Below, one piece after another: positions 4,799 through 19,992 of a stretch of DNA of 37,944 bases. The translations under genes and the position numbers were made by a program. The stretch lies in contig DATKMQ010000116.1 in assembly GCA_035541755.1 (NCBI GenBank), forward strand, positions 1 through 37,944. Reading direction: 5' to 3'. This DNA is from Syntrophorhabdaceae bacterium (GTDB lineage: Bacteria; Desulfobacterota; Syntrophorhabdia; Syntrophorhabdales; Syntrophorhabdaceae). A model generated the notes under the pieces. It made no database searches. It was given only the letters and a program-made list of their open reading frames with translations, and was not told the origin of the DNA. Each line of letters starts with the position of its first letter. The stretch's first letter is position 1.

Positions 4799-6100
4799 TC
4801 ACTTCGGCTCCACAGGTTTCTCTCTGATGATACCCATTTTTACGTAAACAGATCTCGCCGATTGCTGAATGAGGGGAAGTTTTTTCAGGAAAAAGAGAGA
4901 ACCGATGATGCAGATAGTTCCCCCTATGATAACAGTGTGAGGAGCGCCTATCTTGCTTGCAAGGCTGCCTGCCATGACGGCTCCGAAGGGGGCCGCGCCC
5001 CCGAATGCCATTGTATAAAAACCCATGACACGCCCCCGTTTATCTTCATCGGTGATTGTCTGTAAAATGGTGTTCGTTGAAGCCATCTGGATGATCATAC
5101 CGAAACCAGTGAAGAGGAGGATAAAAAGGGAGAATGGAAGGTAGCGGGAAAAAGAGAAAACGACAAGTCCCGCGCCAAAAATACTTGAAGCAATGAAGAT
5201 AAGCTTTTCCAGACCGAGTACAGATTTACGGGGTGCGAGATACAATGCGCCCACGAGAGCGCCGACACCCGAAGCACCCATGAGAAAGCCCAACGTATGG
5301 GGTCCTCCATGAAGGATGTCTTTAGCAAAAATGGGCATGAGGACTACGTACGGCATTCCCACTAAACTTGTAAGGGCTAAAAGAAAAAGGGCATATCGAA
5401 TGGGTGGGAAACCGAGCACGTATCGATACCCTTCTTTAAACCCATGAAAGAGCGAAGCAGATCTTTTTTCGTCGTTACGCCTTGGTATCTTCATGGCGAG
5501 CAGCGTGCCGATAATGGCCAGGAAACTCACGGCGTTTAGAAGAAAGCAAGGTCCTTCGCCTATGGCGGCCACCACGAGGCCGGCAATTGAGGGACCCACG
5601 AGCCGTGCACTGTTGAACATAAAAGAATTTAGCGCAATAGCGTTCCCCAGGTCTTCTTTGTTTTCTACTATCTCGATGACAAAAGACTGACGGGCCGGCA
5701 TGTCGAAGGCGTTAATTGAGCCAAGGAAAAGACTTAAGATGACCAGATGCCAGACATGAACATGACCGCTCAAGGTAAGAAATGCCAGAAGGGATGCCTG
5801 TATTGTAGCGAGTATCTGGGTAATGATGAGCAGGTTACGGCGATGCATTCGATCGATAAAGACTCCTGCAAAAGAGGTAAGGAAGAACATGGGCGCCATA
5901 CCGGTAAATCCTATGAGGCCTAAGTAAAAAGCGGAATTCGTCAAACGGTACACAAGCCAGCTCATGGCTATCTGCTGCATCCATGTTCCGATGAGAGAAA
6001 CACCCTGGCCTCCGAAATAAAGCCGGTAGTTCCTGTAACGAAAGGCCCTTCCCATGAATCCGAGGGCTGATTGTTTGTCTGGCGATGATGCTGTGTTCAT
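4799..6100 (-). CDS. MFS transporter, EntS-like (MFS_3) exporter family
   Basis: This 433-residue protein is a 12-helix major facilitator permease of the inner membrane. It opens with FRYRNYRLYFGGQGVSLIGTWMQQIAMSWLVYRLT, characteristic of the enterobactin-exporter-like MFS_3 group, and has the loop 2-3 motif DRMHRRN, the SINAFDMPARQSF segment of this group, and a second-half motif around DKRGRVMGFY. Members export siderophores, drugs or other small hydrophobic molecules; the substrate here is unknown. The ATG is preceded by AAGGA about eleven bases upstream, and a TATAAA box lies about 40 bases upstream. The gene is flanked by two copies of a 22-23 bp repeat, which may mark acquisition as a unit. 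Confidence 0.9.
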   Translation of the reverse strand: MNTASSPDKQSALGFMGRAFRYRNYRLYFGGQGVSLIGTWMQQIAMSWLVYRLTNSAFYLGLIGFTGMAPMFFLTSFAGVFIDRMHRRNLLIITQILATIQASLLAFLTLSGHVHVWHLVILSLFLGSINAFDMPARQSFVIEIVENKEDLGNAIALNSFMFNSARLVGPSIAGLVVAAIGEGPCFLLNAVSFLAIIGTLLAMKIPRRNDEKRSASLFHGFKEGYRYVLGFPPIRYALFLLALTSLVGMPYVVLMPIFAKDILHGGPHTLGFLMGASGVGALVGALYLAPRKSVLGLEKLIFIASSIFGAGLVVFSFSRYLPFSLFILLFTGFGMIIQMASTNTILQTITDEDKRGRVMGFYTMAFGGAAPFGAVMAGSLASKIGAPHTVIIGGTICIIGSLFFLKKLPLIQQSARSVYVKMGIIREKPVEPK

Positions 6101-11437: not shown

Positions 11438-11495
11438 CCGGACAGGCTATCCGAAGTATCGTACATGTACAGGGGGAATGATCATTGTTGCCCCC

Positions 11496-11723
11496 TCAGT
11501 TTCCGCAACAGGTACCGGGTGTACCGCAGGAATTGGGAGAGCCGCAGCAGCCGCCGGGTGCTCCTGTGAACTGGGGCGAAGAACTCGTTGTATTATGAGC
11601 GGACATGAGTTTTGTCAGCTCTGTGCCCGCGCAGGATTTACACTGCAAGGTTTCGTTATCGGCGAAGACAATGAACTCATTGACTGCGCCGCATTGTTCA
11701 CATTTATATTCATAGATAGGCAT
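11496..11723 (-). CDS. FmdB-family zinc-ribbon protein
   Basis: A 75-residue protein beginning MPIYEYKCEQCGAVNEFI with a second pair CKSC near residue 28, the standard FmdB regulatory-protein zinc ribbon (two CxxC knuckles). The C-terminal third is a low-complexity Gly/Ser/Cys tail with two CCG pairs, common in this family and possibly able to bind more metal. The family's role is poorly defined; it was named from an amidase/formamidase regulatory locus. It is the last gene of a minus-strand run DUF134, NifX-like, FmdB with about 30 bases to the gene before it. Confidence 0.88.
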   Translation of the reverse strand: MPIYEYKCEQCGAVNEFIVFADNETLQCKSCAGTELTKLMSAHNTTSSSPQFTGAPGGCCGSPNSCGTPGTCCGN

Positions 11724-11753
11724 ATTTCCTCCAAAATAGTTTCTTGATACGTT

Positions 11754-12131
11754 TCAATGATGTGCGCATCCGCCCGCGTGGCCCCCGCAGGTATGATTGA
11801 TCGTGAGTTCAGGAAGGGCGTTGTCCTCGAGGAGCTCCAGATTTCCCTTCACGGTCTGTTCCAGGGCCCGGTAGACCTTAATGCCTTTGGCATTGAGCCC
11901 CATAAGAGCGCCTGCACCTATACCGCCTACTACAACCGCGTCAACCTGGTTGCCGCCTAACGCCATGATGGGATTACAGGCCCCGTGCTCGTGAATCATG
12001 TTAGCATTCGACACAGTCCCTACATTCTTTTGATCCGTGTCAATGACCACAAATGTCGGCGCTGTTCCGAAATGACCATATACCGCGCTTTCAATTCCTT
12101 TGTCCTGCTCTACTGGAAAACATACTTTCAT
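11754..12131 (-). CDS. NifX/NifB-type (dinitrogenase Fe-Mo cofactor biosynthesis) domain protein
   Basis: A 125-residue stand-alone protein of the PF02579 family. It starts MKVCFPVEQDKGIESAVYGHFGTAPTF and has the conserved VDAVVVGGIGAGALMGLNAKGIKVYRA core, with a metal-like Cys/His tail CGGHAGGCAHH. Proteins of this family bind iron-molybdenum cofactor precursors in nitrogen fixers, but stand-alone copies are widespread in anaerobes without nitrogenase and probably handle metal-sulfur clusters. Its start overlaps the stop of the DUF134 gene by four bases (ATGA), so the two are translationally coupled. The same pairing is common in anaerobes. Confidence 0.92.
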   Translation of the reverse strand: MKVCFPVEQDKGIESAVYGHFGTAPTFVVIDTDQKNVGTVSNANMIHEHGACNPIMALGGNQVDAVVVGGIGAGALMGLNAKGIKVYRALEQTVKGNLELLEDNALPELTINHTCGGHAGGCAHH

Positions 12132-13166: not shown

Positions 13167-14711
13167 ATGGCCGATACTAAAACATCGCGTGAGATAGCCG
13201 AACTTTCTCTTCTTTTTGAGATCAGTACAAGACTCGGCGAGAGCCTTGATCTCAAGACAGTGCTCAAGCCGATTCTCCAGATGACGGCGAAACACATGAA
13301 AATCCCCCGCGGCACGCTCACGATTCTCAACAGACAGAGGGGCGAGATTGTGATCGAAGAGGCATACGGCCTTCGACCGGAAGAACAGGCCAAGGGCACC
13401 TACCGCATCGGTGAAGGCATTACCGGAAGGGTGATCGATACGGGACAGCACGCGATCATCCCCAGGATATCCGAGGAACCGCTATTTCTTGATAAGACCG
13501 GCTCACGAAAACATCTCAACAAACGCGACATCGCTTTTATCTGCGTGCCCGTAAAGTCGGGCAGCGAGGTGATCGGCGCCCTTTCCGCAGACCGGTCGTC
13601 CAGCGAAAAAATAGCTCTCGAGGAAGATGCGAGACTTTTAACGATCATTGCGTCGAGCATCTCCCAGGCGGTGCGCCTAAGACAACGTGCGCAGGAGGAA
13701 ACCAAGCAAATCAGAGAAGAGAACCAGCGACTCCATGACCAGCTCAAAGACAGATACCGGCCAAAATCGATCGTGGGCAACTCAAAAGTCATGCGAAGCG
13801 TCTATGAGCTCATCGAACAGGTGAGCAAGACAAACGCGACAGTTCTCATCCTCGGTGAAAGCGGGGTGGGCAAGGAGCGGGTTGCTCACGCCATTCACTA
13901 TAGCTCCAACCGCTCGGAAAAGCCGTTCGTGGCGGTGAATTGCGCGGCGCTGCCGGAATCCCTCATAGAAAGTGAGCTCTTCGGTCATGAGAAAGGGGCT
14001 TTCACCGGGGCCACAGCGGCCCGCAAAGGCAGGTTCGAGACGGCGGACAAAGGAACAATCTTTCTCGACGAAATAGGCGATCTACCGCTTTCCGTACAGA
14101 CGAAGCTGCTCCGGGTTCTTCAGGAGAAAGCCTTCGAGCGTGTGGGCGGCGATGCGACCGTAAAGGCCGATGTGCGGGTCATCACGGCAACGAATAGGGA
14201 CCTCGAAACGCTCATGAGAGAGGGAAGATTCAGGGAAGATCTCTATTACCGGCTCAACGTGTTCCCTATCCTCGTGCCCCCTTTGAGGGAGAGGGTCACA
14301 GATATTACACTTCTCGCCGATCATTTCATCGAAAAGTACGGCAGGGAGCATGCAAAACGGATACTGAGCATATCCACGGCAGCCACAAATATGCTCATGA
14401 ATTATCATTGGCCGGGTAACGTCAGGGAACTGGAGAACTGCATTGAACGGGCGATCATCCTCTCGACCGACGGGATCATTCACAGCTATCACCTTCCACC
14501 GAGCCTGCAGACTGCGGGCGAGAGCGCGGCTCATGAAACAGGTCCCACCTTCAAAGACGCGATGGCTAATATAGAGCGTGAACTCATCGTAGAAGAGCTC
14601 AAGCGGTGTCGCGGAAATATGGCCAAAGCTGCCCGGGCGTTAGGCATCACCGAACGTATGATGGGCATAAGAGTCGCCAAACATAATATAGAACCTTCAC
14701 AATTCAAGTAA
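13167..14711 (+). CDS. NifA-type sigma-54-dependent activator (GAF-AAA-Fis)
   Basis: A 514-residue enhancer-binding protein. A GAF sensor domain spans about residues 10-170 ([16 protein letters not shown] at its start), a helical linker follows, then the AAA+ domain from about 200 to 430 with Walker A GESGVGKE, the sigma-54 contact loop GAFTGA, and Walker [13 protein letters not shown] Fis-type helix-turn-helix lies near residues 475-510 ([17 protein letters not shown]). The architecture and close sequence character are those of NifA/FhlA relatives; the Cys-rich linker of oxygen-sensitive NifA is absent. It should open RNA polymerase-sigma54 promoters in response to a GAF ligand. Downstream lies a strong -24/-12 promoter, its likely target. 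The SD (AAGGA) is rather far from the ATG, but no other in-frame start exists. Confidence 0.93.
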
Positions 14712-14766: not shown

Positions 14767-14782
14767 GCTACATTTATGTAGC
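14767..14782. promoter_or_regulatory. Putative upstream activator sequence
   Basis: GCTACA-ttta-TGTAGC is a perfect 6-bp dyad, followed by a further CTACA half-site near 14797. It sits about 136 bases upstream of the -24 element, a usual distance for sigma-54 enhancers. It does not match the NifA consensus TGT-N10-ACA exactly, so the link to the adjacent activator is inferred. Confidence 0.5.
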
Positions 14783-14917: not shown

Positions 14918-14933
14918 TGGCACGGCCATTGCA
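14918..14933 (+). promoter_or_regulatory. Sigma-54 (-24/-12) promoter
   Basis: TGGCACG-N4-TTGCA matches the sigma-54 consensus at every position, with the invariant GG at 14919-14920 and GC at 14931-14932. Transcription should start near 14944 and read into the outer-membrane protein, permease-PII and PII genes. Confidence 0.88.
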
Positions 14934-14958
14934 ATTTCTGAAGTCTAAGGAGCGAGAC

Positions 14959-15009
14959 ACAGGCGTCTTGGAAACCTGGATTGGTTCTAAGACGCCTGTT
15001 CTATTTTTT
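14959..15009 (+). terminator. Leader terminator / attenuator
   Basis: ACAGGCGTCTT (14959-14969) pairs with AAGACGCCTGT (14989-14999), with extra pairing of GAA/TTC and CC/GG inside, then TCTATTTTTT. It lies about 15-65 bases after the predicted sigma-54 start and 100 bases before the first gene. It would release an RNA of about 66 bases unless bypassed, so it is an attenuator or the end of a sigma-54-controlled small RNA. Confidence 0.7.
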
Positions 15010-15107: not shown

Positions 15108-16025
15108 ATGAAGAAGTTCGGATTGGTTATTGTGGCATGTATGGTTCTTTCAGGTTTTGCCGCTGTGCGCTCTGTCCATGCAGATGAGATCAAGGTTGGC
15201 GGAGTTTCCCCGCAGGCGGGCTCTCTGGACGCCGTGACTCAGGCAGACAAGGCCAAGGAACCCGAGACTCCCAAGGTAACGGGCAGCGGATCAATCGGTT
15301 TCTATAACCAGTACATATTCCGTGGATACGAGATCGGTAAGAGCGGGCTTGTGATTGAGCCATCGCTCACTGAGTCCTATAAAGGTTTTACCGCTACGTT
15401 CTGGGGCAATGTGGATAGCAATGAGCGCAACACGACGTCAGCGGTGTTCGGAAACGAAGGAAGAAAGGGCTGGGATGAGACGGACTTTAGCTTAAGCTAC
15501 ACCTATACGATAAGCAAATTATCTTTGACCGGCGGGTATACGTACTATGCCCTCAAGTACGCCGAAGAGACCGAAGAGCTCTGGCTGACGCTCGCGCTCG
15601 ATGTACTGACCAAGCCGACCCTCTCGGTGTATCAGGATATTCAGTCTTACAAAGGGACGTACTTTAACCTGGCTTTTGCCCATTCTTTCACCCTGCCGAA
15701 GGATATTACCCTCGATCTTGGTGCCTCCTTCGGGTACGAGATAGGAGAAAGCAATTACTGGAAGACCTATCAAACAGCTACGGGCGATTATACGGGGAGC
15801 AAATACCGTGGTTTTCATGACGGCATGGTAAAAGCCGGCCTTACGATCCCGGTGACCAAGGCATTCACCATTCAACCTCTGGTCCAGTACTGGTTTCCGC
15901 TTTCGTCGAATGCAAACAAGACATTTGGAACAGATCCGGCTACAGGCTTAAAGATTGCCTATAATCCCAACGGATATGTTCCGGATAATTTGATCTACGG
16001 AGTGGGCTTTACTTACAGCTTCTGA
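15108..16025 (+). CDS. Outer-membrane beta-barrel protein, TorF/Gcw_chp-like putative porin
   Basis: A 305-residue exported protein with a signal peptide (MKKFGLVIVACMVLSGFAAVRSVHA) and then alternating amphipathic strands ending in aromatic Phe (YGVGFTYSF), the usual outer-membrane barrel signature. The first strand GSGSIGFYNQYIFRGYEIGKSGLVIEPSLT matches the start of the Gcw_chp/TorF putative porin family, whose members often neighbour ammonium transporter and PII genes. GGAGG precedes the ATG. It is the first gene after the sigma-54 promoter and presumably passes the permease's substrate across the outer membrane; the substrate is unknown. Confidence 0.85.
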   Translation: MKKFGLVIVACMVLSGFAAVRSVHADEIKVGGVSPQAGSLDAVTQADKAKEPETPKVTGSGSIGFYNQYIFRGYEIGKSGLVIEPSLTESYKGFTATFWGNVDSNERNTTSAVFGNEGRKGWDETDFSLSYTYTISKLSLTGGYTYYALKYAEETEELWLTLALDVLTKPTLSVYQDIQSYKGTYFNLAFAHSFTLPKDITLDLGASFGYEIGESNYWKTYQTATGDYTGSKYRGFHDGMVKAGLTIPVTKAFTIQPLVQYWFPLSSNANKTFGTDPATGLKIAYNPNGYVPDNLIYGVGFTYSF

Positions 16026-16178: not shown

Positions 16179-16268
16179 ATGAAAAAGAATTTGAGTGTGA
16201 ACAGTTTCGGTTCGGTATGGCTACAAATATTATGTGCAAGAGCGCAAGAGGAGGTGTGCTATGGCTGA
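16179..16268 (+). CDS. Possible 29-codon leader peptide overlapping the permease start
   Basis: AGGAGG lies six bases before an ATG that opens a 29-codon frame starting MKKNLSVNSF and containing a Trp-Leu-Gln stretch. Its TGA (16266-16268) overlaps the first codons of the permease gene (ATG at 16261), and the permease's own GGAGG lies inside it. This arrangement is typical of translational coupling. No homologue is known to me, and an accidental ORF cannot be excluded, but the ribosome site is stronger than chance would usually give. Confidence 0.45.
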   Translation: MKKNLSVNSFGSVWLQILCARAQEEVCYG

Positions 16269-18129
16269 TACGGAAGGAAGAGAAGGTACGGTAGTGGCAA
16301 AATTGGGTCTTATCGGGGCAAGCATGAATGCCATGGCGCTTATCGCCCCGGGGGCATTTCTGTGGATTACCTATCAATTGCAGGCTGCAGCAACGACGCC
16401 GAGCGGGGCCTCTGCGGCAAGTGATATCTGGATGGGCATCGTTCTCGCGCTTTTCGTGGCGTTTCTCACGGCCCTCTCATATGCGCAGCTCGCGAAGATC
16501 TATCCTGAGGCGGGTTTTGCCTCCTGTGCGTATTTTGCAGAGAAGGCGTGGCTCGATGCGAAGGCTGAAAAAAGAAGCGGGCCCAAATCGATTGCCCGTA
16601 TTTCCAAGCTGGCTACAGGCTGGTCGGCCCATCTTTTTTACTGGGCCTATTCAGGGGTCATGGCCGCCATGATGGCCACATTGATTGCCTATATCTACAA
16701 TCAATTCACGGGTGCTGATCTGTCAATTACGAATCAGGCCATCATCTGCGTGGTCTTTACCATCATTACCGCCTATATCGCGTACAGGGGGGTGACCGGA
16801 TCAACCGTGACCTCCATTGGGATCAACATAATCCAATGGGCGACGCTCATCGTGTTCAGCGGCCTGGCCATCTGGTACCGTGTTGCTAACCCGCAACACG
16901 TGGTTCAATGGGCATTTTCCGGCGGTATCGACATTGTGAGGCCGCACGGACTCACAGGAATCGTGGTTCAATCGACTATTGCAATATTGATCCTTGTGGG
17001 ATTCGAGAGCTGCACGGCCCTATCCGCTGAGACAAAGAACCCCGGCAGGGTCATCCCTAAAGCGATCATCATCTCTCTTCTCGTGCAAGGGGTCTTTGCT
17101 TACCTCATCCAATACTTTGCGGCAAATTATATGGTAAGCGACAAGCTCGTAAACGTGACGAACAAAGTCACCACCGTGGGGCTCGCTGCGGCCTCTGCAT
17201 CGAGCGCGCCTGTTGGTGACCTGGTGAAACTATTGGGCGACAGTATCGTGCCGGGAATAGGGTTCGGGCTCATGATTACCATGGCCGTCACGGTGGCAAT
17301 AGCCATTATCGGTACGACCCTAAGTGCCATGAATACGGCGATGAGGATCACAGCCGGCATGGCGGATGACCGGGAGTTACCATCCGGTTTAAGCTTTATC
17401 CACCCTTCTTTCAGAACGCCACATATGGCACTCGTGGCGCTGACCATTGCCGTTTCAGTGATCGGCGTGATCGGGGTTCAAAGCGTGGTGGGTTTGACAG
17501 GCATTGCGCTCGCCTCGAACCTCGGGACCTTCATCTTATACGGGCTCACCTGCGTCTGGACCATCATAGCCTTCAAGGGAAGGACTGATTTCAGCGCCCT
17601 CAAACATGCGGTTATTCCGGTGTTGGGCGTTATCGTGAATGCACTCATGGTGGTGGCGATCCTCTATCTCTATACCACAGGCAACGCCGATGCAAAGGCA
17701 GAGGCCAAGATATGTTTTATGCTCGCCGGCGGCTGGGCTGTCATCGCTATCATCTATGTGGCCATGACCACGGTGCGCAAAACATACCGTTTCAAAATGG
17801 TGTCCGGCATGATCAGACCCGAGCAACTCAATATCGTTGTCGATGCCTTGAAGGAAGAGGACTACATCATGGGTATGACCGTGACCAAAGTGAAAGGCTT
17901 CGGCAGGCAAAAAGGCAGTACCAATGGCGGCTCCGATACCGACCGGATCACCTTTGTGCCCAAGATAAAGGTGGACGTTCTCGTGAGGGAATGGGATGTC
18001 CAGGCCGTGATGGACATTATCGGTGAAGCAGCCCGCACGGGGAACGTGGGCGACGGCAAGATATTTGTTGTTGATGCATCGGAAGCCATGCGTATACGCA
18101 CAGGCGAACGAGGAATTGAGGCTATATAA
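16261..18129 (+). CDS. APC-family amino acid/amine permease fused to a C-terminal PII (GlnB-type) domain
   Basis: The product is 622 residues from the ATG at 16261 (GGAGG six bases upstream). Residues 1 to about 505 form an APC permease: LGLIGASMNAMALIAPGAF at the first helix, the GFESCTALSAETKNPGRVIPKAI loop, and about 12 helices. Residues from about 513 to the end are a complete PII domain: GMIRPEQLNIVVDALKEEDY, GFGRQKG before the T-loop, the ATP-binding B-loop TGNVGDGKIFV, and the C-loop RIRTGERG. The T-loop is rewritten (STNGGSDTDRITFV) and has no tyrosine, so classical uridylylation is impossible. PII normally senses ATP/ADP and 2-oxoglutarate and plugs ammonium channels; here it probably gates an amino-acid or amine importer in cis. 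A soluble PII gene follows after 10 bases. Confidence 0.93.
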   Translation: MADTEGREGTVVAKLGLIGASMNAMALIAPGAFLWITYQLQAAATTPSGASAASDIWMGIVLALFVAFLTALSYAQLAKIYPEAGFASCAYFAEKAWLDAKAEKRSGPKSIARISKLATGWSAHLFYWAYSGVMAAMMATLIAYIYNQFTGADLSITNQAIICVVFTIITAYIAYRGVTGSTVTSIGINIIQWATLIVFSGLAIWYRVANPQHVVQWAFSGGIDIVRPHGLTGIVVQSTIAILILVGFESCTALSAETKNPGRVIPKAIIISLLVQGVFAYLIQYFAANYMVSDKLVNVTNKVTTVGLAAASASSAPVGDLVKLLGDSIVPGIGFGLMITMAVTVAIAIIGTTLSAMNTAMRITAGMADDRELPSGLSFIHPSFRTPHMALVALTIAVSVIGVIGVQSVVGLTGIALASNLGTFILYGLTCVWTIIAFKGRTDFSALKHAVIPVLGVIVNALMVVAILYLYTTGNADAKAEAKICFMLAGGWAVIAIIYVAMTTVRKTYRFKMVSGMIRPEQLNIVVDALKEEDYIMGMTVTKVKGFGRQKGSTNGGSDTDRITFVPKIKVDVLVREWDVQAVMDIIGEAARTGNVGDGKIFVVDASEAMRIRTGERGIEAI

Positions 18130-18139
18130 GGAGGATGTC

Positions 18140-18478
18140 ATGAAAAAAATCGAAGCGATAATTCGTCCTGCAAAGGTAGGAGATGTATACGCTGCCCTGG
18201 AAAAGGTTGGCTGCCCGGGCCTTATGTTCACAGAGATCGAGGGCCAGGGAAAACAAAAGGGCATCGAACAGGAGTTTCGCGGAAAGAAATACAAGACTGC
18301 CTTGCTCACCAAAGCAAAGCTTGAGATTGTGGTCGATGACCCGGATGTTGACAAGATTGTACAGGCTATATGCGACGCCGCTACAACAGGACAGGCAGGA
18401 GACGGGAGGATCTTCATATACGACATTACCGAAACCGTTCGAGTGAGCACCGGACAGAGAGAAAATAGTATCGGATAG
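18140..18478 (+). CDS. PII-family signalling protein without the uridylylation tyrosine
   Basis: A 112-residue PII protein: MKKIEAIIRPAKVGDVYAALEKVG, T-loop entrance GQGKQKG, B-loop TGQAGDGRIFIYD, and C-loop VRVSTGQR. In E. coli GlnB the T-loop reads TELYRGAEY with Tyr51 modified by GlnD; here it reads EQEFRGKKY, so position 51 is Phe and the loop is unusually basic. AAGGAGG precedes the ATG, ten bases after the permease-PII stop, so the genes form one operon. It may form mixed or competing trimers with the fused PII domain, or relay nitrogen status elsewhere. That role is inferred. Confidence 0.93.
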   Translation: MKKIEAIIRPAKVGDVYAALEKVGCPGLMFTEIEGQGKQKGIEQEFRGKKYKTALLTKAKLEIVVDDPDVDKIVQAICDAATTGQAGDGRIFIYDITETVRVSTGQRENSIG

Positions 18479-18663: not shown

Positions 18664-19992
18664 ATGAGCGGAATTTTTGGATTCATCGGTAGAGGCAATG
18701 GTTTTGTTGAAGTGAGGGCCGGGCTCGAGAATCTCTCCCACAGAGGACAGGAAAGCTGGGGTATCGTTACCGGTCTCAAGGATGGATCCTTCTCAGAGGT
18801 AAGGCGCCTCGGATCGATCTTTCATTCTTCTCCGCTCAATCGATCCTATTTCGGATCGGTGGCAATCGGTCAGGTTCGCTATCCAACGGCGGGCGAGGCG
18901 ACTGAGAGAAACAGCCAGCCCATCGTCGGAAGTTTTAAGAAGGAAAAAATCGCACTCGTTCATAACGGGCACATTCCCCATTACAGACAGTTGATGGAGG
19001 AGATTGGTGGTCTGTTCCAGACCGAGACGGACACTGAAGTCATCCTGCAGATGATCGCCAGGAGCGAGGGTGCGGATATCATCGAGAAAACGGAGAAGAC
19101 GCTCTCCTTTTTGGGACGGCAGGCAGCGTTCAGTATTATCATGCTTCATAACGGGACTCTTATTGCCGCCAGGGACCCCTTCGGGTTCAGACCCCTTTCT
19201 CTTGCGCGAAGAGGCGAAGACGACGACTACTCCTTTGCTGTCGCTTCTGAGACGTGTGCTTTTCACGGCAGATTTGAATGGCTGGGAGATGTAGAGCCGG
19301 GTCACATGGTCGTCATGGACGGAAAGAGTGTAAACAAGTTTGTTTTTGCCGCGCCCAATCCTCACCCCTGTCTCGTGGAGTGCCTTGATTATGCTTCCCC
19401 TGCGAGCCATGTCTTTTCGAGAAACACTTACGAATTCCGGGAGAAGGTAGGAGCACGGCTCGCACAATCGGAAACGGAAAAAGCCGACATGATTGTCCCG
19501 ATCCCACGGGCTGCCATTCCCGCGGCGCTCGGTTTTCACGAAGTCGCCGGAATCCCTTACAGGCAAGCGGTAAGCACGGTTGGTGAAGTGGGGAGGGTGT
19601 TTATCATCTCAAAGGAAAAAGACAGGTTGGATCAAGCCGAAAAGAAATTTCAGATTAACCCCGACGTGGTAAAAGGCAAGACAATATTTCTCGTTGATTC
19701 GCTGCTCGTCAGGGGATCAACGGCCATGGTATTGATCCCGAAATTGCGGGAAGCAGGGGCACGGCAGATTCATATGCGGCTTACCGCGCCACCTCCACGG
19801 TATCCCTGTCTCATGGGCATGGCAATGGCCAAGCCCGGCGAGCTTCTGGCTACAAACCGGACGGATGAACAGTTAAGGAAGCTCATAGGAGTGGACACCT
19901 TCCGGTATCTGAAGACAGCAGAACTGAGAGAAGTTGTAGGCACGCAGTTCTGTGATGCCTGCTTCACCGGTGAGTACCCCTTCTCGGTGTGA
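18664..19992 (+). CDS. PurF-like amidotransferase/phosphoribosyltransferase paralogue with Ser in place of catalytic Cys
   Basis: This 442-residue protein has the domain order of amidophosphoribosyltransferase: N-terminal glutamine-amidotransferase (LSHRGQESWGIV, the NGHIPHYRQL glutamine-site loop, ETDTEVI, RDPFGFRPL) and C-terminal phosphoribosyltransferase. The first residues are MSGIFGFIG where PurF has MCGI, so the nucleophile Cys is Ser. The PRPP loop reads LVDSLLVRGST instead of VDDSIVRGTT. The likely 4Fe-4S ligands are retained (Cys in the PHPCLVECLDY region, PCLMG, and CDAC near the C-terminus). GGAGG precedes the ATG, so the start is sound. It may be a non-canonical transferase, a regulatory paralogue, or an enzyme using ammonia; true PurF should be elsewhere in the genome. 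It lies next to nitrogen-control genes. Confidence 0.85.
   Translation: MSGIFGFIGRGNGFVEVRAGLENLSHRGQESWGIVTGLKDGSFSEVRRLGSIFHSSPLNRSYFGSVAIGQVRYPTAGEATERNSQPIVGSFKKEKIALVHNGHIPHYRQLMEEIGGLFQTETDTEVILQMIARSEGADIIEKTEKTLSFLGRQAAFSIIMLHNGTLIAARDPFGFRPLSLARRGEDDDYSFAVASETCAFHGRFEWLGDVEPGHMVVMDGKSVNKFVFAAPNPHPCLVECLDYASPASHVFSRNTYEFREKVGARLAQSETEKADMIVPIPRAAIPAALGFHEVAGIPYRQAVSTVGEVGRVFIISKEKDRLDQAEKKFQINPDVVKGKTIFLVDSLLVRGSTAMVLIPKLREAGARQIHMRLTAPPPRYPCLMGMAMAKPGELLATNRTDEQLRKLIGVDTFRYLKTAELREVVGTQFCDACFTGEYPFSV

Follow-up and report, generated by a model that had tools for sequence, protein, structure and literature searches.

PII proteins work as trimers, the tip of their T-loop is the usual interaction element, and Tyr51 of this loop is modified by GlnD. 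We know of no APC transporter that functions as a trimer. Control by PII has been described for AmtB, SbtA, NrtABCD and UrtABCDE, which provide the precedents for PII proteins gating transporters, and it is apparently restricted to transporters able to function as trimers (PMC10710835). This restriction speaks against built-in PII gating of an APC transporter, and the conserved APC-PII fusion described here, encoded in a window of 37,944 nucleotides (the whole stretch of DNA that was analysed), puts the restriction directly to the test.

The locus resembles GlnK-AmtB in that a PII is genetically tied to a putative inner-membrane nitrogen transporter, carries the residues for ATP, ADP and 2-oxoglutarate and lies in a sigma-54/nitrogen context, but here the PII is covalently joined, the transporter belongs to the APC rather than the Amt type, and the fused T-loop has neither the Arg47 plug nor Tyr51. 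An Amt-PII fusion in a genome from the phylum of a record labelled Omnitrophota (locus L096, 5750-7501) likewise combines an N-terminal transporter and a complete C-terminal PII in one chain, but its transporter is an Amt channel instead of an APC permease, and its T-loop tip is intact (QQWRGESY), keeping Arg47 and Tyr51. Amt-PII fusions are already known, and APC-PII adds a different transporter type to the transporter-PII fusions. In KimA, a dimeric K+ transporter, a soluble C-terminal domain of regulatory type likewise follows the APC membrane core, whereas the soluble domain of the fusion is a PII; the fused APC part had no match to KimA in a PDB sequence search. By sequence, the solved structures nearest to the permease part are those of GkApcT-type transporters (5oqt and 6f34, E=2e-4), but these are very distant, lack a PII domain and have a helix 5 lysine that aligns with Gln192 of the fusion; a profile of the permease part returned no match in the PDB. 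SbtA-SbtB is another case of a secondary transporter controlled by a member of the PII superfamily (PMC10710835), but it consists of separate chains, has a trimeric transporter, depends on AMP and belongs to a carbon rather than a nitrogen context.

No report of an APC-PII protein was found in full-text literature searches, in agreement with the first-pass annotation, which knew of no characterised system of this kind. Since this coverage leaves out most subscription papers and preprints, as well as domain-architecture databases, APC-PII appears, provisionally, to be an undescribed means of coupling nutrient uptake to nitrogen status. As such, it would make the APC superfamily a further target of PII control, and because the fusion fixes sensor and transporter at 1:1, it offers a clean system for studying how the ligand state of a PII is passed on to a membrane protein.

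Table 1. Features of the APC-PII locus, in positions of the window
Feature	Positions	Strand	Basis
NifA-like sigma-54 activator (GAF + AAA + Fis HTH)	13167..14711	+	Pfam; NCBIfam NifA TIGR01817; homologue in G015
Inverted repeat CTACATTTATGTAG, candidate upstream activator site	14768..14781	.	0 mismatches
Sigma-54 (-24/-12) promoter element TGGCACGGCCATTGCA	14918..14933	+	TGGCAC-N5-TTGCA, sole perfect match in the window
Terminator-like hairpin and T-run in leader, candidate attenuator	14955..15002	+	fold z=-5.0; stem conserved
Predicted outer-membrane beta-barrel protein, signal peptide	15108..16025	+	no Pfam match; homologues at the same place
APC permease-PII fusion, 622 aa	16261..18129	+	ORF; Pfam; 16 further full-length copies
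APC permease part, residues 1-505	16261..17775	+	AA_permease_2 4.5e-13; hydropathy; GkApcT-type structures
PII domain, residues 511-622, effector residues intact, C-terminus free	17791..18126	+	P-II 7.6e-21; model; invariant residues
T-loop of fused PII, residues 548-568, without Arg47 and Tyr51	17902..17964	+	alignment
Free PII (PII-A), with Arg47 and Tyr51, Arg103 replaced by Ser	18140..18478	+	P-II 8.4e-27; residue count; alignment
PurF-like glutamine amidotransferase/phosphoribosyltransferase	18664..19992	+	TIGR01134 4.8e-86, under its cut-off

The fusion frame and the two PII proteins

The open reading frame of the fusion spans 16234-18129 on the forward strand; its likeliest start is the ATG at 16261, behind AGAGGAGG (AGGAGG), and its stop codon lies at 18127-18129. 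In Pfam, AA_permease_2 (residues 51-472, E=4.5e-13) and AA_permease (7.6e-11) both exceed their curated cut-offs, and P-II matches residues 512-616 over positions 2-102 of its 102-position profile (E=7.6e-21). No Ammonium_transp domain was found in the fusion, APC families alone accounting for the Pfam matches of the permease part. The motifs GFGRQKG, TGNVGDGKIFV and RIRTGERG occur in the frame, so that the original description of an APC permease and a complete PII in one frame was right in both coordinates and motifs. Hydropathy gives about 12 hydrophobic segments for the permease part; the structure model of the full-length fusion, built from four sequences, was too low in confidence to use (pLDDT 41). 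The last membrane helix is connected to PII beta-1 by about five residues, and the alignment of 17 full-length fusions contains no insertion or deletion from this helix to beta-1. Among the window copy, a second copy in the same genome (contig C60) and a copy in a genome of the same family (G015), dN/dS is 0.03-0.06 for the permease part and for the PII part, with dS near saturation; purifying selection thus appears to act on the fused PII domains.

The fused PII domain matches Aquifex PII at 1.8e-25, and a model of it of acceptable confidence (pLDDT 76) retrieved GlnK structures in Foldseek at 2.9e-10, although with a high rmsd. When the 17 fused domains were aligned with 37 free PIIs, the nucleotide and 2-oxoglutarate residues Gln39, Lys58, Gly87-Asp88-Gly89-Lys90, Arg101 and Arg103 proved invariant in all 17. 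The nucleotide contacts listed for GlnK are those kept in the fused domain, and a free C-terminus is reported to be important for 2-oxoglutarate binding in GlnK (PMC8395244). The Arg47/Tyr51 motif of the T-loop is absent from every fused domain; the tip reads GFGRQKGSTNGGSDTDR-ITFVPK in the window and varies in length and sequence among the fusions. Because Arg47 is absent and the tip is variable, plugging in the style of AmtB is disfavoured, and the loss of Arg47 led us to rule out an AmtB-like plug by the fused domain. All fusions share a Trp-Asp-Val triplet at about positions 68-70, which is missing from the aligned free PIIs. In the tree, the fused domains form one clade with 99/99 support, some inner branches and long-branch rows being uncertain, and a single origin is the reading that the sequences support. 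In the standard PII topology, beta-1 starts on the T-loop side of the barrel, and the T-loops of the fusion should therefore face the membrane.

PII-A, as had been noted at the outset, starts ten bases past the fusion stop; it has its own AAGGAGG site. Counted from Met1, its T-loop reads G41-I-E-Q-E-F46-R47-G48-K-K-Y51. The claim of the first-pass annotation that both T-loops lack Tyr51 therefore holds for the fused domain and fails for the free protein, in which a direct residue count finds Tyr51 as well as Arg47. Most free partner PIIs carry both residues, that of genome G443 having Phe51, and Arg103, a nucleotide-contact position, is lost in the free PIIs of the window, C60 and G015. Searches that scored the E. 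coli control found no GlnD (PF08335) in the genome of the window, which is about 96% complete, or in 14 of the 15 other fusion-carrying genomes; Tyr51 of PII-A may thus matter little in the genome of the window. The sole GlnD-type nucleotidyltransferase matches, G429:C43 and G429:C58, lie inside giant ORFs of 7,845 and 7,071 codons.

The pairing of fusion and free PII recurs at all 17 full-length fusions, the free gene usually adjoining and sometimes standing after the porin gene or upstream. At 14 loci the free PIIs form one group in the tree (88/94 support). Relatives of PII-A at 64-100% identity occur nearly always in fusion-bearing genomes, while those at 50-64% are also found in genomes without the fusion, which rules out that PII-A is exclusive to fusion genomes. 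Further PII-like genes accompany some copies: at L083 (7877-8197, reverse strand) and L084 (6318-6710), a free PII-like protein with most of its T-loop deleted is encoded between the fusion and the porin gene, and at L009 (2366-3070) and L012 (3958-4848) the fusion is followed by a second, divergent free PII (T-loop YCRGGKYES) and then by a small UPF0060/EamA-like membrane protein.

Regulatory setting, neighbourhood and distribution

The sigma-54 activator upstream scores 531.8 bits against the NifA model TIGR01817 (cut-off 528.85) and is 75% identical to its homologue in G015. For the inverted repeat, 0.11 matches at up to 2 mismatches would be expected by chance, and its CTAC-N6-GTAG pattern is also kept in C60 and G015. 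At the same position relative to the porin gene, the sigma-54 element is perfect in G015 and has one mismatch in C60, and a sigma-54 gene was found in the genome of the window. Sigma-54 control, as proposed in the first-pass annotation, is supported by this conservation; since the element sits upstream of the porin gene, extending it to the fusion assumes co-transcription over a 235-base gap. At the distant loci L089 and L090 a perfect element lies directly ahead of the fusion gene, at a distance of 65-69 bases. The leader hairpin, placed downstream of the sigma-54 element and ahead of the barrel gene, recurs at two related loci (z=-3.6 and -4.4). GAF or GAF-ANTAR-type proteins, a class that includes antiterminators, are encoded at G015 and other fusion loci, so leader attenuation at 14955-15002 is possible. 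Rfam gave no match to a known riboswitch in the leader of the window, and the gap between porin and fusion had structure no stronger than shuffled sequence (z=-0.10).

The barrel protein matched no family in Pfam or NCBIfam; its predicted nature follows from its sequence and from the BBP2 porins that occupy this position elsewhere, and its homologues in C60 (88%) and G015 (58%) are placed alike. The window and G015 agree in gene order: the NifA-like activator comes first, then the barrel protein, APC-PII, PII-A and finally the PurF-like gene, which is 80% identical between them. Further genes in G015 encode NadE, a GAF-ANTAR protein, a small sigma-like protein, another free PII and a small membrane protein of the UPF0060/EamA-like type. 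The Omnitrophota-type loci contain Amt-PII pairs, glutamine synthetase, NadE, CTP synthase and BBP2 porins, some with cation transporters, including a KimA-like K+ transporter (E=8.5e-65 to 6s3k). The fusions thus lie in islands of nitrogen-assimilation genes (Amt, PII, glutamine synthetase, NadE), which supports a role in nitrogen metabolism. At L083, a c-di-AMP riboswitch (5696-5870, reverse strand) precedes the gene for a cation P-type ATPase bearing an N-terminal PTS EIIA domain.

A P-II search found the second fusion of the window's genome (G000:C60), which is 91% identical to the first and followed by two free PIIs. Identity to the window copy is also 91% in G015, 85% in G043 from the same order, 68% in the record labelled Omnitrophota and 64-65% in the unclassified 'bacterium isolate FK4.bin61'. 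Of 334 genomes sampled from the Omnitrophota record's phylum, 14 carry the fusion, two of these copies being truncated at contig ends; it is also present in 3 of 46 genomes of the window's order and in 2 of 395 genomes sampled from the window's phylum. The 17 full-length copies span that order, the Omnitrophota record's phylum and the one unclassified bacterium; APC-PII therefore recurs in at least three bacterial groups. The first-pass annotation had named the joining of two genes by a sequencing error as a finding that would overturn it; with 16 more full-length copies at 63-91% identity, the fusion is neither chance nor sequencing error. In the permease tree the clade of the window is nested, with modest support, among Omnitrophota-type sequences, and this nesting together with the patchy occurrence suggests that the fusion may have spread by horizontal transfer. 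The fusion had no match in the viral contigs and plasmids searched, and carriage by either was dropped.

Proposed control in cis and its alternatives

Given the short junction of invariant length, the PII domain with its ligand residues and free C-terminus, the free PII partner and the sigma-54/nitrogen setting, all read from sequence, APC-PII is probably, in our judgement, a nitrogen-regulated inner-membrane transporter whose activity would be controlled in cis by the PII domain at its C-terminus. Sensing of ATP and 2-oxoglutarate in cis, as first proposed, remains the most economical reading with the binding residues invariant in 17 fusions; the substrate class, direction of transport, effector binding, gating and sign of control are what we infer. 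The PII domain would be placed in the cytoplasm. When nitrogen is short, with ATP and 2-oxoglutarate high, it would permit uptake of a small organic nitrogen compound, presumably an amino acid or amine entering through the neighbouring porin, and when nitrogen is plentiful, with ADP and low 2-oxoglutarate, it would restrain the transporter. PII works as a trimer, a state not known for APC transporters, and the partners of the fused domain in such a trimer are therefore probably two further fusion molecules or subunits of the free PII; coupling is more likely to run through the helix-12/beta-1 junction and the base of the T-loop than through an Arg47 plug.

It is also possible, though we would not favour it, that the fused PII mainly anchors PII-A, the permease acting as a transceptor that captures or releases the free PII according to nitrogen status and signals onward to nitrogen metabolism, a role that could coexist with gating. 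Mixed trimers of GlnB and GlnK are known in E. coli, the free PII accompanies every full-length fusion, and in G490, G429 and G442 the fused and free PIIs have both diverged while the permease has not, with a partial correlation of 0.73 given the permease (p=0.0008). However, this value falls to -0.16 without that one clade, so the co-divergence is a single event, and general co-evolution of the two PIIs was dropped; the joint divergence in these three genomes is suggestive, but not proof, of an interaction between them. Fused and free PII are, moreover, just about 33% identical, and the 50-64% relatives of PII-A in fusion-free genomes speak against this role. Here we speculate, with some diffidence, that APC-PII and PII-A might together build a mixed PII trimer, anchored to the membrane on a transporter that is not itself trimeric, and that this transceptor would read ATP, ADP and 2-oxoglutarate with neither T-loop plug nor uridylylation; if true, this would extend PII control to the APC superfamily.

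Control in cis could also concern an exporter or exchanger, serving amino-acid overflow or antiport or a cation movement tied to the balance of K+ and ammonium. APC proteins include exchangers, a different coupling is possible because the helix 5 lysine of GkApcT aligns with Gln192, a KimA-like transporter is close by in Omnitrophota-type loci, and another locus has the cation P-type ATPase behind a c-di-AMP riboswitch. Sigma-54 activation and the Amt, porin and glutamine synthetase neighbours nevertheless fit nitrogen scavenging better, and we consider export or exchange unlikely. That the frame is two genes joined by error, or carries a functionless PII remnant, is highly improbable even though the named records are all metagenome assemblies: the 17 full-length copies share one junction and include two from the window's genome, which together with the low dN/dS rules out a sequencing artefact, and the invariant effector residues argue against a vestige.

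Unfused cousins of the permease, at 37-39% identity, cluster with Amt, a PP2C phosphatase and a Ser/Thr kinase (L059-L064), and this clustering suggests that phosphorylation control replaces PII in them. At L061, a relative of the small UPF0060/EamA-like protein (11484-11801) is encoded between the unfused APC cousin and Amt.
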